Source: Candidatus Rifleibacteriota bacterium
GTDB taxonomy: Bacteria; UBP17; UBA6191; JACPRK01
Direction: 5' to 3'
Length of the DNA: 25,680 bases
Assembly: GCA_016213865.1 (NCBI GenBank)
Contig: JACQZL010000219.1
Span: 1 to 25,680 of the forward strand
In this document: in pieces, positions 20,797-25,674 of the stretch
How the letters are laid out: each line of letters opens with the position of its first letter
Numbering within the stretch: the first letter of the stretch is position 1
Notes under the pieces: model-generated
Told to the model about the DNA's origin: nothing
The model's input: only the letters and a program-made list of their open reading frames with translations
Databases searched by the model: none
Position numbers and translations under genes: made by a program

Positions 20797-21161
20797 GGGC
20801 GGGCTGCTTCGGTTTCTCCTGTTCGCTTCATGCTCGCCGAGCAGGGGATCTTCGCCGGAGACCATGCAGGGCTCGAGAGACTGGCGCGCACCATCAAACC
20901 AGTGCATCCTGAGCCAGCCGTTTAACGGCCGAGTCATGGCAGGGTCCCGGCAAGGTCCTCGAAAAGGACTTCGGCAACCCGGTTTCGTCACCCCCGCACA
21001 AGCGGGGGTCCAGGAACGATGCGACCCCTGGATTCCCGCTCCCCGCTTTCGCGGGGACATGCTTCGCGGGAAGGACGACTTTGTCCGTTGCTCTGAGTGC
21101 CCCTCCCCACGCCGCCGGGCCCGTCCATCTCCGATATACTGGTCCGGGAAAGGGAGCATCG
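20797..21161. other. Intergenic region before the broken kinase gene
   Basis: It contains the REP-like repeat at 20990-21075 and a TATACT -10-like box at 21135-21140, 22 bases before the kinase start; no matching -35 box is visible. I see nothing else in the stretch 20797-20989. Confidence 0.45.
20990..21075. repeat. REP-like dispersed palindromic repeat
   Basis: ACCCCCGC-ACAA-GCGGGGGT (20990-21009) is a perfect 8-bp stem. GGTCCAGG and CCCTGGATTCCCGC follow, then the stem CCCCGC-TTTC-GCGGGG (21041-21056) and the tail CTTCGCGGGAAGGACGAC. The layout (C-rich hairpin, CCAGG...CCTGG, second hairpin) is that of the widespread 'cattcccgcgaaagcgggaatccag' repeats of proteobacterial and environmental genomes. 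Its spurious minus-strand translation, SPRKRGAGIQ and WTPACAGVT, is equally characteristic. Confidence 0.75.
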
Positions 21162-22278
21162 ATGCAGAGAATTCCCGGGTACCGGATCCTGGCGCAAATC
21201 GCCTCCGGAGCCTCAGGAACCGTCTACCGGGCCGTGCAGGAGGGGCTCTCTCGTGAGGTCGCACTCAAGGTGCTGACCGGGACCCTGCACACCGGTGCCG
21301 AGGCGCAAGCCCGCTTCGTCCGGGAAGCCCGCCTGCAAGCGCGCCTCTCCCACCCGAACGTGCTCACCCTGCTGGACGCCGGTTTCGCGGACGGCCGGCC
21401 GTTCCTCGTGACCGAACTGGTGGAGGGAGGCACGCTGCGCGATCGGCTCGCGTCTGCCGGCCCCATGCCGGCCAGCCAGGCGGCGCGGCTCGGCGGGGAC
21501 CTCGCCGCAGCCCTGGCGCACGCGCACGCGCACGGCATCCTCCATCGCGACCTCAAGCCCGAAAACGTGCTTCTGGCCGCTGACGGCCGTGTCCTGGTTT
21601 GCGACTTCGGTCTCGCCAAGGGGACCTCGACGGGCGAGTCGGAAGTCCTCCGGACGGCCTCCGACGTCATCCAGGGAACTCCGGGATACCTCGCTCCGGA
21701 GGTTGTCTCGGGCAGCCCGGCGAGCCCGGCTTCCGACCTCTATGCCCTCGGAGTGGTGCTCTACGAGATGCTCTCGGGCAGGCTTCCGTTTGCCGAGCGT
21801 CCGCGATCCGCGGAGGGACGCATGGCCGGGCTGGCAGCAACTCTCCAGGGCCGGTCCCGGCTCCATCAAGGACTTTTCCGCCGTCGAGTTCGGGCCTTCC
21901 GTCGCCGTTGCCTACTGTCTCGAATCCGAAGTCTTCGTTCACACGAGCCGCGATGGCGGGGCGACGTTCTCAGCCCCGGTGCGGGTCCGTGGTCAGGGGC
22001 AACTCCAGGTGATGCCGTTGCTGGCCGCGGAAAAGGACCGCCTCTACCTGGCGTATCTCGATTTCGAGCTCACCGCGCTGCGCACCAACGTTGTGGTCCA
22101 GGCGAGCTCGGACGGAACGAAGTGGGAGCCGGTTACGAGGTTCCGCAGCGACGAGGTGGCCGTGGCCGAGGGAGGCGCCGAGTGTGGTTTTGCGGTGACC
22201 CCGTCGAGTTTCGTTTACGCGTGGACCGTGGATGGCCGGAGCCTTCGGGTAAAGCGCGTCCCTCGCCGGCGGTCGTGA
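21162..22278 (+). pseudogene. Broken Ser/Thr kinase fused out of frame to a BNR-repeat beta-propeller
   Basis: ATG 21162 follows GGGAGCATCG. The first 210 codons encode a kinase domain with VALK K36, HRD D130 in HRDLKPENV, DFG D148 and GTPGYLAPE. The C-lobe stops after YEMLSGRLPFAERP, so the last helices of the kinase are missing. From about 21850 the homology continues in a different frame: SAVEFGPSVAVAYCLESEVF, then the Asp-box SRDGGATFSAPVRV, and on to RVPRRRS with stop TGA at 22276-22278. This second part is a sialidase/BNR-type propeller fragment. The parent was probably kinase, linker, membrane segment, then propeller; a deletion of the middle, at about 21795-21850, joined the ends out of frame. 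A sequencing indel alone would not explain the missing kinase end and membrane segment. Element A starts 12 bases after the stop. Confidence 0.7.
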
Positions 22279-22280
22279 TG

Positions 22281-22290
22281 CCCCTCACTT
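22281..22290 (+). repeat. Left target-site duplication of element A
   Basis: CCCCTCACTT directly precedes the left terminal repeat at 22291 and recurs at 22579-22588, directly after the right terminal repeat. A 10-bp direct repeat at both outer edges is what insertion of a mobile element leaves. The C-run blurs its exact length (9 or 10 bp). Confidence 0.6.
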
Positions 22291-22578
22291 GGGTGCACGT
22301 CTCGTAGGTGGTCCCACGCCAGTTTGGGAAGGCCCTGGCTTGACTCCTCGACACAGAGACACAGAGACACAGAGACACAGAGACACGGAGCCACAGAGCC
22401 ACAGAGCCACAGAGAAAGAGAGACCGTGAGTGGCGACGTCCATCGGATGACAAGACGAGGGAGACTCGAGGGGTCGCGGCGCCTGCGAGCGAGGCAGAGG
22501 AAGATCTCTCTGTGCCTCTGTGTCTCTGCGTCTCTGTGTTTCTCCTGCAAGGGGGGGACCACCCACGGGACACGCCCC
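22291..22578. mobile_element. Element A: non-coding MITE-like copy
   Basis: The left terminal repeat at 22291-22315 (GGGTGCACGTCTCGTAG then GTGGTCCC) faces an inverted right copy at about 22554-22578 (GGGGGCGTGTCCCGTGG then GTGGTCCC on the minus strand). Inside, nine tandem 8-nt units (ACACAGAG and variants, 22351-22422) are mirrored by four inverted units at about 22507-22542. A direct repeat CCCCTCACTT flanks the whole. The right flank copy contains the stop codon of the kinase gene ending at 22583. No gene is present in the 80-base centre. The termini match those of element B, which carries a GxxExxY gene, so A looks like a non-autonomous relative. Confidence 0.7.
22351..22422 (+). repeat. 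Tandem array of 8-nt units, left arm of element A
   Basis: Four ACACAGAG units, one ACACGGAG, three CCACAGAG and one AAAGAGAG follow each other without spacing. The inverted counterpart at 22507-22542 reads ACACAGAG, ACGCAGAG, ACACAGAG, GCACAGAG on the minus strand, so transcripts can fold into a long hairpin. The period is far too short for a CRISPR array. Confidence 0.85.
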
Positions 22579-22588
22579 CCCCTCACTT
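22579..22588 (+). repeat. Right target-site duplication of element A
   Basis: CCCCTCACTT here repeats 22281-22290. TCA at 22583-22585 within it is the stop codon (TGA) of the minus-strand kinase gene, so the insertion lies immediately behind that gene without changing its last codons. Confidence 0.6.
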
Positions 22589-24634
22589 CGGCTCGAGGGG
22601 GCGAGCGACTCCTCGCGAGGGCGCCGACCGGGCGACCCGGAAACCGCACGGCTTGTAGTCGTTCAGAGGAGTCCAGGCTGCCCGGAAGGTCGCTCTCGAG
22701 TAACGGGCGGCATCCCCACAACCCCCGCCGCGTTTGACGTGCTCCGCGCCCCGGACCGGGCCCCGCGGATCGAACACCGGCCCCGCCGGGTAGACGGCGG
22801 AGTACCAGTCCTGGCAATACTCCCACACGTTGCCGGCCATGTCGAGGCAGCCGAAAGGCGACGCGCCCGCCGGGAAGGCGCCGACAGGCGAGAGTGAGGG
22901 ATAGCCGTCTTCGCCCGCGTGGTTGGCGCGGTCTTTTCCCGGGGCGTCGTTTCCCCAGGGGTAGTGCCGCCCGTCAAAGCCTCGCGCGCCCAGTTCCCAC
23001 TCCGCCTCCGTGGGCAACCGCAACCCGGCCCAGCTCGCGTAGGCCTCGGCGTCCTTCCAGGCAGCTTCCGAGAAAGGATGATTGTCGTCGGCGCCCGCGG
23101 GCCGCGCGGGCGGCGCGCGTCTGTTCGCCGCGCAGAACCGCTCGAACTGGACCCAGGTCACCTCGTGCCTGCCCAGCAAGTACGGCGTCAACGTCACCCG
23201 GTGCACCGGCCTCTCATCGGAGTCCCCCGCGTTGTCCCCCATCTCGAAGGAGCCACCGGGGATGAGGACCAGGACCGAGTCGTCCCGGGTATTGAGAAAC
23301 TCCTCGAAGCCGCGGGAGTTCGGTCCGATGCGGGTCAAGCCGGGCCACGGCTCCGTGGTCGCGGGGCCTCCGGGCCGTGACTCGACCGCGAGGGGCTTCG
23401 AGGCCCGGTCGACGCTCGCCGGCCCGCTCGAGGCAGCGGTCGTTTCACGCGAGGAGGCCGGCGGCACTGCCGGTGCACCTGCCAGAACCCGTGGCTGCGA
23501 GGGCGCCCTCTCGAACCAACCTTGCGAGATGGCCACTGCCGCCCCCAGCCCGAACACCGCGGCCAGCGCCAATGGCCAGGGCCGTTTGACCGCCGGAGCC
23601 GCGCCGCCTGTCGGGGCCGTAGGCGAGGCGGATGACGGGGTGACGGGGACGACCGGACGACTTGCCCGGACCGTTGCGACGAGCCTCTTGCTGGACCCGG
23701 TCCGGGTGGCGCCCGTGGCCGCGGGCCGTCGGCTCGAGTCGCGGTCGAGGGCCCTGGTCGCGATTGGCGCCGGCCTCGACTCGACGCGCCCCTCCTCGAG
23801 CTCGCGAAGGGCCGCTTCCACCAGGAGCGCGCTCGACGGTCGGGCGGAGGGCTCGGCCTCGAGACACTGGAGCACGAGCCTGTCGACCGCCGGCGAAAGA
23901 CCCGGGCGGAGCCAGGAAGGAGGCGCCGGCGGACCGGCCTGCTGGGCCCGGACGAAGGAACCGAAGTCCGAGGCATCGAAGGGAAGAGAGCCGCTCAGCA
24001 GCTCATAGAGGATGGCTCCGAGGCCGTAGAGGTCGGAGCTGGCCGTACAGGGCTCGGCCCGCACCAGCTCGGGCGCCATGTACCCGGGAGTCCCCAGGAT
24101 GGTCCCCAGCATCGTCAGCCTGCTGCCGACGTTCCGCCCCAGGCCGAAGTCGGCCAGCTTCGCGGTGCCGTCGGTGGCCAGGAGCACGTTGTCCGACTTC
24201 AGATCTCGGTGCACCACCCCCTGCTCGTGCACATATCCGAGCCCCGCGCACACCTGGCGAGCGATCGCCCACACCTCACCGAGCGGCAGCAGCTTCTCCC
24301 GTTCGAGGCGAGACTTGAGGCTCGTGCCCTCGACGAGCTCCAGAACGAGGTAGAGCTCGCCCGCTTCTTCCCCCGCATCGAAGCACAAGATGACGTTGGG
24401 ATGACGCAGGGACGCCAGAAGGCGCCCCTCGCGCAAGAAGCGCTCTCGCAGCGACGGCTCGGTCACCCGGCTGAACTTGATCGCGACGTCCCGCCCCAAT
24501 CCTCTCTGGCGGGCGCGAAAGACCGAGCCCATCGCCCCTTCTCCCAGGAGCTCTCTGAGCTCGTAGCGAGCCAGGAAGGTGCCGGAGAACTCCGCTCGAC
24601 CGTGCATGCTCGTCATGTCGCGGCCCGCCGTCAC
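22583..24634 (-). CDS. Membrane Ser/Thr protein kinase with C-terminal SUMF1/FGE-like domain (second copy)
   Basis: This 683-residue protein has a kinase domain at 24-280 (GEGAMG loop, VAIK K53, HRD D144 in HRDLKSDNV, DFG D162, GTPGYMAPE). A long Pro/Ala/Ser linker, a membrane segment at about 353-371, a second flexible stretch and a SUMF1/FGE-like domain at 455-670 follow (IPGGSFEMGDNAGDSDERPV, LRLPTEAEWELGARGFDGR, GCLDMAGNVWEYC, KRGGGCGDAARYS). The catalytic loop has Ser where most kinases have Pro (HRDLKSDN), as in some active kinases. The SUMF1 part has one Cys after RGG but not the paired cysteines of FGE. GTG 24634 has GGAG upstream; ATG at 24616 or 24607 are alternatives. The gene lies between elements A and B, each with its own flanking duplication, so the two insertions look independent rather than forming a composite transposon. 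Confidence 0.9.
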   Translation of the reverse strand: MTAGRDMTSMHGRAEFSGTFLARYELRELLGEGAMGSVFRARQRGLGRDVAIKFSRVTEPSLRERFLREGRLLASLRHPNVILCFDAGEEAGELYLVLELVEGTSLKSRLEREKLLPLGEVWAIARQVCAGLGYVHEQGVVHRDLKSDNVLLATDGTAKLADFGLGRNVGSRLTMLGTILGTPGYMAPELVRAEPCTASSDLYGLGAILYELLSGSLPFDASDFGSFVRAQQAGPPAPPSWLRPGLSPAVDRLVLQCLEAEPSARPSSALLVEAALRELEEGRVESRPAPIATRALDRDSSRRPAATGATRTGSSKRLVATVRASRPVVPVTPSSASPTAPTGGAAPAVKRPWPLALAAVFGLGAAVAISQGWFERAPSQPRVLAGAPAVPPASSRETTAASSGPASVDRASKPLAVESRPGGPATTEPWPGLTRIGPNSRGFEEFLNTRDDSVLVLIPGGSFEMGDNAGDSDERPVHRVTLTPYLLGRHEVTWVQFERFCAANRRAPPARPAGADDNHPFSEAAWKDAEAYASWAGLRLPTEAEWELGARGFDGRHYPWGNDAPGKDRANHAGEDGYPSLSPVGAFPAGASPFGCLDMAGNVWEYCQDWYSAVYPAGPVFDPRGPVRGAEHVKRGGGCGDAARYSRATFRAAWTPLNDYKPCGFRVARSAPSRGVARPLEPK

Positions 24635-24714
24635 GGAGGCTCCGTTGCCGATCGCGCCTCAGGCGGTGACTGGCGTGACCGGCGTCAATCCTACCACGAC
24701 CGGCGAAAACTCGG

Positions 24715-24723
24715 GGGGGGGAC
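24715..24723 (+). repeat. Left target-site duplication of element B
   Basis: GGGGGGGAC directly before the left terminal repeat recurs at 25291-25299 directly after the right one. The left G-run is two bases longer, so the exact length is uncertain. Confidence 0.55.
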
Positions 24724-24784
24724 GGGTGCATGTCTCGTAAGTGGTCCCCCAGACGGCCAGGTGCCGGTGTAGGCAGGTTTCCAA

Positions 24785-25210
24785 GTGAACCACCAAGGCA
24801 CGAAGGCACCAAGGGTTGCACCAAGAGAAGCGATTCCTGATGCGACTGAGCGCGTGGCGACCCAGGTTGTCGATGCTGCGTTCACCGTCCACAAGACCCG
24901 CGGCCCCGGCTTGCTCGAAAGCGTCTATGAACTCTGCTTGGAGCACGAGTTGCTGCGCCGTGAAGTCCCTGCGGAACATCAGGTCACCCTCCCGGTCGTG
25001 TATCGCGACCTGCGTGTCGAAAACGGGTTCCGCATCGACATGGTCGTCGCCAAGTGCGTCGTCGTGGAACTGAAGGCTGTCGAGTCGCTGCAGCCTATCC
25101 ACCAAGCTCAACTCCTGACGTATCTGAGGTTATCGGGTTACCGCTTGGGCTTCTTGCTGAACTTCAACGTCGGAGGCTTCAAGCAGGGGATTCGACGACT
25201 CATCCTGTAG
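24785..25210 (+). CDS. GxxExxY-family protein, PD-(D/E)XK nuclease-like
   Basis: This 141-residue protein starts at GTG 24785 and stops at TAG 25208-25210. The signature GLLESVY (G42, E45, Y48) names the family. RIDMVVAKCVVVELK carries D85, E95 and K97 with the spacing of a PD-(D/E)XK nuclease core, and QAQLLTYLRLSGYRLGFLLN and NFNVGGFKQGIRRL are the usual C-terminal motifs. Length is normal and all motifs are present, so it appears intact. The function of the family is not established; nuclease activity is inferred from fold. The gene fills the space between the inner palindromic arms of element B, and its first codons (MNHQGTKAPR) are encoded by the left arm. A native start near residue 18-20 is possible. 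No operon partner is present. Confidence 0.88.
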   Translation: MNHQGTKAPRVAPREAIPDATERVATQVVDAAFTVHKTRGPGLLESVYELCLEHELLRREVPAEHQVTLPVVYRDLRVENGFRIDMVVAKCVVVELKAVESLQPIHQAQLLTYLRLSGYRLGFLLNFNVGGFKQGIRRLIL

Positions 25211-25254
25211 CTTCTTCGTGCAGCCCTTCGTGGCTTGGGGTCTTGGTGGTTGGT
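25211..25254 (-). repeat. Right inner arm of element B
   Basis: Read on the minus strand this arm (ACCACCAAGACCCCAAGCCA and onward through CGAAGGG) mirrors 24788-24830 with about 80% identity. The right arm begins at the base after the stop codon of the GxxExxY gene, so gene and arms form one compact unit that would fold into a long stem with the gene in the loop. Confidence 0.65.
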
Positions 25255-25290
25255 TTCTCCGGCCGGGGACCACCCACGAGACATGCACCC

Positions 25291-25299
25291 GGGGGGGAC
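25291..25299 (+). repeat. Right target-site duplication of element B
   Basis: GGGGGGGAC here repeats 24715-24723. Eighteen bases later the toxin-antitoxin control region begins, so element B inserted just outside that cassette. Confidence 0.55.
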
Positions 25300-25371: not shown

Positions 25372-25674
25372 ATGAAAGCCATACGAGTGAAAGACGGCAT
25401 TGTCCCGCTGGGGGAGTTCAAGGCCAACGCGGCGAGATTGCTCAAGGAGCTGCGCGAAGACACCGGTCCCTTGGTCATCACTCATAACGGCCGGCCCGTG
25501 GCCGTGATGCTGGCTCCGGAGGCATAGGACCGGATCCAGGAGGAGCAGGCGATGCTCGAGGCCGTCGCGGCCGGGTTGGCGGACGCCGAAGCTGGGCGGG
25601 TCGTGGAGCACGACCGAGTTGCCGAGTGGCTGGCGTCCTGGGGGAAGAGCCACGAGGAAAAGGCCCCGATGTGA
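25372..25674 (+). pseudogene. Phd/YefM-type antitoxin gene interrupted by an in-frame amber codon
   Basis: ATG 25372 has GAAGAGGGC as ribosome binding site. The first 51 residues (MKAIRVKDGIVPLGEFKANA, then LVITHNGRPVAVMLAPEA) are the DNA-binding N-terminal half of a Phd/YefM antitoxin. TAG at 25525-25527 stands where the family has a codon for Tyr (PEAYDR). The same frame then continues without further stops as DRIQEEQAMLEAVAAGLADA and on to WLASWGKSHEEKAPM, with TGA at 25672-25674. One base change (TAC or TAT to TAG) explains the break. TAG serves as a normal stop in two other genes here (13788, 25208), so recoding is unlikely. The truncated product could still bind DNA but would lack the toxin-neutralising tail. 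The full-length frame overlaps the next start by ATGTGA. Confidence 0.85.

Follow-up and report, generated by a model that had tools for sequence, protein, structure and literature searches.

Two short inverted-repeat elements with periodic hairpin cargo, one of them enclosing a GxxExxY nuclease gene, in a Candidatus Rifleibacteriota contig

Miniature inverted-repeat transposable elements (MITEs) and other non-autonomous derivatives of insertion sequences (IS) are among the described systems closest to two elements, here called A and B, of contig JACQZL010000219.1 from Candidatus Rifleibacteriota bacterium (positions 1 to 25,680, the whole stretch of DNA analysed, hereafter the window). A and B resemble them in their shortness, in their terminal inverted repeats (TIRs), in target duplications that differ from copy to copy and in having no transposase gene, but they differ in their cargo, a periodic hairpin that in B is accompanied by a nuclease gene, and no parent IS was found. 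The IS256, ISLre2 and ISKra4 families, which are Mutator-type, have GGG-type ends and 8-9-bp duplications that fit those of the window, and an IS256 or ISKra4 parentage of the TIRs is conceivable. Neither a sequence match to these three families nor a transposase was found for the window TIR elements in the collections searched. IS families are treated in PMC3942029.

The gene carried by B is a clear member of the GxxExxY family (TIGR04256, PF13366), scoring above the curated cut-offs, and this name occurs in PMC8934634. Its product shares the PD-(D/E)XK fold with Cas4 and RecB-type nucleases. Cas4 has a four-cysteine iron-sulphur cluster, whereas the GxxExxY protein is only 141 aa long and has a single invariant cysteine (C51, across 17 GxxExxY sequences), and there is no CRISPR context in the window. 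REPIN/RAYT systems (PMC3116915) are comparable in their inverted pairs forming hairpins, in their dispersed gene-less intergenic copies and in a chromosomal gene whose product acts on DNA; REPIN-like dispersed gene-less hairpins occur in relatives of the module described below and, within the window, only as A. In REPIN/RAYT systems the gene encodes a tyrosine transposase, whereas here it encodes a TIGR04256 / PF13366 PD-(D/E)XK nuclease; the GxxExxY arms are moreover longer and periodic and, in the window, are contained in a TIR transposon bordered by target duplications.

Our analysis makes it likely that A and B arose when a short TIR transposon, non-autonomous and carrying a widespread periodic hairpin unit, inserted twice independently, with the nuclease presumably acting on the hairpin arms and TIR transposons sometimes capturing hairpins. 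A preliminary description of this DNA had reported four ends of about 25 bp arranged as two inverted pairs, and the 25-bp end pattern GGGTGCAYGTCTCGTRRGTGGTCCC, with up to three mismatches allowed, indeed gives four copies in the window in this arrangement and none in each of 100 dinucleotide shuffles (Table 1). Left and right TIRs agree at 20 of 26 positions in A and at 24 of 26 in B. Each pair is bordered by its own direct repeat, CCCTCACTT for A and GGGGGGGAC for B; both repeats are perfect (9/9) and lie at the TIR edges, and the two strings are unlike each other, which upholds the separate insertions read from them earlier. The boundaries first proposed were right to within one base: alignment of the right end of A with the three other ends places it at 22579 and not at 22578. 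The duplications, given as 9-10 bp, are present, and on this alignment the one of A is 9 bp, equal in length to that of B. Matches of 9/9 at equal spacing, the elements themselves counted, occur at 2 of 25,373 window positions for A and at 3 of 25,095 for B; the B duplication consists of a G run plus AC and carries less weight as evidence. A and B are two separate, real insertions sharing one TIR family, and non-autonomous, MITE-like transposons are the reading that suits them best. Profile searches (TIGRFAM, Pfam) recognised no transposase in A or B, as had been stated before, and six further open reading frames overlapping the elements had no Pfam match.

The contents of the two copies had been described as a GxxExxY nuclease-like gene in one and a periodic hairpin in the other. 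The gene is present in B and the hairpin in A, but B too has a periodic hairpin (24788-24826 / 25213-25251), which encloses the gene, and the hairpin of A has similar arms and no gene. The left arm of A has a self-match of 0.93 at period 8, and arm scores with the TIRs left out are 56 for A and 43 for B against a threshold of 24. Folded as single-stranded DNA, A gives z -4.06 (0/200 shuffles equally stable) and B gives z -6.58 (0/100); no Rfam families were found within the window. Units of the A type (CACAGAG) border a GxxExxY gene at four other loci (L033, L053, L059, L062), so that A fits as a gene-less member. Thus, instead of two distinct contents, A and B look like the gene-less and the gene-bearing form of one kind of module, made of a nuclease gene and a periodic hairpin.

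The GxxExxY protein is the product of the sole recognised gene of B, whose relatives number at least 7,975 at E 1e-10 or better. The left arm of B overlaps the start of its reading frame, and the N-terminus of many GxxExxY proteins (MNHQDTKTPR and similar) is the left hairpin arm translated (alignment A1). A search of PDB sequences returned a single, non-significant match (E 0.21), and no known function for the family came up in the literature and database searches made. Enclosure of GxxExxY genes by matched hairpins is not described in the literature searched by title and start of abstract, subscription journals lying mostly outside that search. The possibility of a phage or plasmid gene was rejected on finding GxxExxY in 0 of 50,697 phage records and 6 of 72,556 plasmid records; among viral contigs, none of 54 pattern-matching stretches was confirmed.

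Hairpin flanks around GxxExxY genes were assessed in a scan of named genomes, which yielded at least 583 confirmed relatives; the best 80 loci, from many phyla, were kept, and 76 were analysable after four clipped by contig ends were set aside. A locus passed when its flank complementarity lay above that of 99% of shuffles, and random spots of the same geometry (n=287) served as control. Complementary flanks were found at 67 of the 76 loci outside the window, compared with 4.2% of the random spots; with the window included 68 of 77 pass, the best pair of the window in that scan being its TIRs. Flank scores averaged 40.7 for self pairs and 20.6 when left and right flanks were mismatched; since the motifs resemble each other, only 33 of 77 loci had their own right arm as the one top-scoring partner. 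Multi-copy genomes gave 30 passing genes out of 38 (six of the 38 repeat loci of the best-80 set, and 25 of the 32 new ones pass), and by eye the arms of genes within one genome are mostly unlike from copy to copy. Judged from these flanks, hairpin and GxxExxY gene look like a separate, widespread module, general among bacteria. The idea of one small element family consequently stands for the shared TIRs and the separate insertions, but the TIR unit was seen in the window only and hairpin and gene appear to belong to the module. At four Paramagnetospirillum GxxExxY loci (L248, L249, L254, L260) no downstream right arm was seen by eye, both hairpin arms lying upstream of the gene.

The presence and absence of the module could be followed at orthologous sites. 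At one Brevundimonas site the gene lies in a hairpin at 8 of 20 fetched loci, 11 hold just 4-159 nt and one holds a 369-nt stretch; several of the 11 short loci carry other palindromic repeats. Depending on the genome, this intergenic spot (L171-L190) is occupied by a hairpin with GxxExxY, by palindromic repeats of other kinds or by hardly any sequence, and it is a repeat hot spot. Across the eight gene-bearing loci the left and right arm units shift together, with mean scores of 52.1 for self and 38.3 for cross pairing; as close relatives pair just as well, self pairing leads its row in only 2 of the 8. One Paramagnetospirillum site has the gene in 4 of 17 cases, a gene-less hairpin of another unit in 1 and is empty in 12, and its arms score 56.5 for self and 48.4 for cross pairing (self best in 3 of 4). 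No target duplication was seen at these Brevundimonas and Paramagnetospirillum gene sites, and one gene-less Brevundimonas hairpin compared with an empty site gave no clean boundary.

Gene-less arms are also dispersed over genomes. The eight Brevundimonas genomes with the gene at the site have 2, 2, 5, 10, 15, 15, 23 and 33 arm-pattern matches (the two arms of the gene itself counted) and eight genomes without it there have 0-2, the gene having been sought at that site only and kinship being uncontrolled. The arms of the resident gene of Paramagnetospirillum genome G038 start with GAC, as do 25 of its 26 pattern matches (two of the 25 being the arms of the gene itself); the same start is found in 1 of 102 matches of the eight other Paramagnetospirillum genomes that have any. 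The pattern of G038 could equally stem from gene conversion or from one recent expansion.

TIRs and duplications were then sought around hairpins with a loose filter at 112 GxxExxY loci, six of which are duplicates. The filter was passed by 8 of the 112, window B among them, and by 2 of 112 controls; a long outer TIR together with a 9-bp duplication was found at window B only, and the TIR around the window hairpins thus looks locally acquired and not part of the GxxExxY module. At L007, L022, L043 (duplicate L139) and L117 the apparent duplication is a palindrome extending the arm, and no general duplication was found at the hairpins of other genomes. An independent parallel to the window, with different ends, is a TIR element of ~190 bp in Paramagnetospirillum. 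Its inverted ends are ~19 bp long, with TA as their first and last two bases, and its pattern was matched 46 times, over 7 of 10 genomes. The element carries a CACAGATG hairpin and is scattered over several genomes (L191-L210, L215-L244); 24 of 30 loci taken were readable, 22 with the hairpin and two with remnants. In an alignment of 17 of the 20 fetched Paramagnetospirillum hairpins, L194, L196, L201, L202 and L208 have, by eye, no TA-type ends.

On the reading that we favour, a transposase from outside the window, making cuts staggered by 9 bp, would have moved the TIR element in trans. The cargo of the element would be a second, far commoner unit, in which two complementary arms, repeating every ~8-10 nt, enclose the nuclease gene (B) or no gene (A); elsewhere this unit is intergenic, usually with neither TIR nor target duplication detectable, and often present in several copies in which the arms vary while left and right still match. 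The nuclease may act on the arms of its own hairpin and on copies that match them but lack the gene, much as RAYT transposases may serve REPINs, and may thereby move hairpins; TIR transposons may sometimes pick up such hairpins and then amplify them.

Several observations weigh against this reading. As far as sequence goes, a common descent of A and B would be carried by their ends alone because the interiors are not shared: TIRs and architecture are what they have in common, and outside the TIRs no significant alignment was obtained (left p 0.27, right p 0.05). There is no further copy of the ends in any collection searched, the 22-nt end pattern having no exact match in genome-contig and viral-contig collections, the 25-nt end with up to three mismatches matching once each in 4 of 294 genomes of Planctomycetota, the phylum covered, versus 8 for a reversed control, and the 67-base end of B giving two short weak matches among the plasmid records. 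Nine of the 76 loci outside the window have no detectable arms, and four Paramagnetospirillum genomes (G026, G030, G035, G037) have 15, 4, 5 and 4 dispersed arms with no gene of that arm type detected. Finally, L020 and L027, which also passed the loose filter, have 5-bp direct repeats (TTGAA or TTAAA) beside their arms that are not strict palindromes, and a short duplication is not excluded at some hairpin sites such as these.

The lack of shared interiors, together with different arm units and the commonness of hairpins as intergenic inserts, would also suit a history in which a cargo-free TIR element came first and two unrelated hairpins, one gene-bearing and one gene-less, entered its two copies independently. 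We regard this as unlikely: the hairpin is similarly placed inside the ends of both copies, the window has no hairpin-free copy, and none of the readable copies of the Paramagnetospirillum parallel (22 of 24 with the hairpin, two with remnants) is clearly hairpin-free. In addition, left and right arms can switch unit together within a single orthologous site, and different arms therefore need no separate origins. Quite unlikely, too, is that this family has the GxxExxY nuclease as its transposase, recognising the 25-bp ends and inserting B, and A in trans, with a 9-bp stagger and with the arms as subterminal binding sites, even if no other gene is recognised in B, the arms directly follow the TIRs on their inner side in both copies and the fold of the nuclease belongs to DNA-cutting enzymes. 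Such an enzyme is hard to reconcile with the 0 of 112 GxxExxY loci (106 when duplicates are removed) that, besides window B, have a long outer TIR and a 9-bp duplication, nor is any duplication visible at the gene-bearing sites of Brevundimonas and Paramagnetospirillum. Coincidence in GC-rich sequence, to which the G run in the duplication of B and the C-rich stretch around that of A might point, is scarcely credible in view of four end matches against none in 100 shuffles and two 9/9 duplications placed exactly at the TIR edges.

What surprises is the cargo: a matched hairpin that holds a nuclease gene and has relatives without one. We put forward, tentatively and as somewhat less than an even chance, that GxxExxY genes and periodic hairpins could constitute an undescribed class of mobile hairpins over many phyla, in which a PD-(D/E)XK, Cas4-like nuclease would recognise and spread its own arm hairpins and the gene-less copies that match them, as a nuclease-based analogue of REPIN/RAYT, arm sequence and nuclease specificity would co-evolve fast, and TIR transposons would repeatedly have captured hairpins. 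If the gene normally resides within its matched hairpin and acts on it, this gives a direct handle on the role of the family; it would account for intergenic repeats of the CACAGAG/CACCAAG type, and a nuclease-based way of spreading hairpins would join the one based on a tyrosine transposase. In the window the hairpins are carried by a TIR transposon whose duplications are clear, and in Paramagnetospirillum by one with other ends.

Table 1. Coordinates of elements A and B, their parts and the gene between them (window positions)
Feature	Positions	Strand	Remarks
Element A	22291-22579		
Element B	24724-25290		
A left TIR, 25 bp	22291-22315	+	0 mismatches vs end pattern
A right TIR, 25 bp	22555-22579	-	3 mismatches vs end pattern
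B left TIR, 25 bp	24724-24748	+	0 mismatches vs end pattern
B right TIR, 25 bp	25266-25290	-	0 mismatches vs end pattern
A left target duplication, 9 bp, CCCTCACTT	22282-22290	.	9/9 vs 22580-22588
A right target duplication, CCCTCACTT	22580-22588	.	contains kinase-gene stop codon 22583-22585
B left target duplication, 9 bp, GGGGGGGAC	24715-24723	.	9/9 vs 25291-25299
B right target duplication, GGGGGGGAC	25291-25299	.	9/9 vs 24715-24723
A left periodic hairpin arm, 8-nt units, CACAGAGA type	22350-22413	+	direct repeat family D1; inverted pair I5, 94% complementary
A right hairpin arm	22507-22543	-	inverted pairs I2, I5
B left periodic hairpin arm, CACCAAGG / CACGAAGG type	24788-24826	+	inverted pair I4, 39 nt, 82% complementary
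B right hairpin arm	25213-25251	-	inverted pair I4
Gene of the 141-aa GxxExxY protein (listed start codon GTG), PD-(D/E)XK nuclease family	24785-25210	+	TIGR04256 139.1 bits, cut-off 35; PF13366 (PDDEXK_3) 138.2 bits, cut-off 22
Kinase/FGE-sulfatase gene	22583-24634	-	stop codon 22583-22585 inside A right duplication

On one side of A lies a plus-strand frame with no Pfam match (21589-22278, stop 22276-22278) and on the other the 3' end of the minus-strand kinase/FGE-sulfatase gene; B lies upstream of that gene. Neither the C25 peptidase nor the FHA-kinase encoded in the window matched a close named relative, one other hit (41%) bearing the name Candidatus Riflebacteria. The former frame overlaps a plus-strand kinase frame (21081-22307), a possible frameshift; the kinase frame matches PF00069 at profile positions 1-203 of 263 and runs on without the last part. 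A Phd/YefM antitoxin frame (25372-25527, plus strand, 51 aa; PF02604, 41.5 bits, profile positions 3-43 of 74) has an in-frame TAG, and the gene looks cut short.

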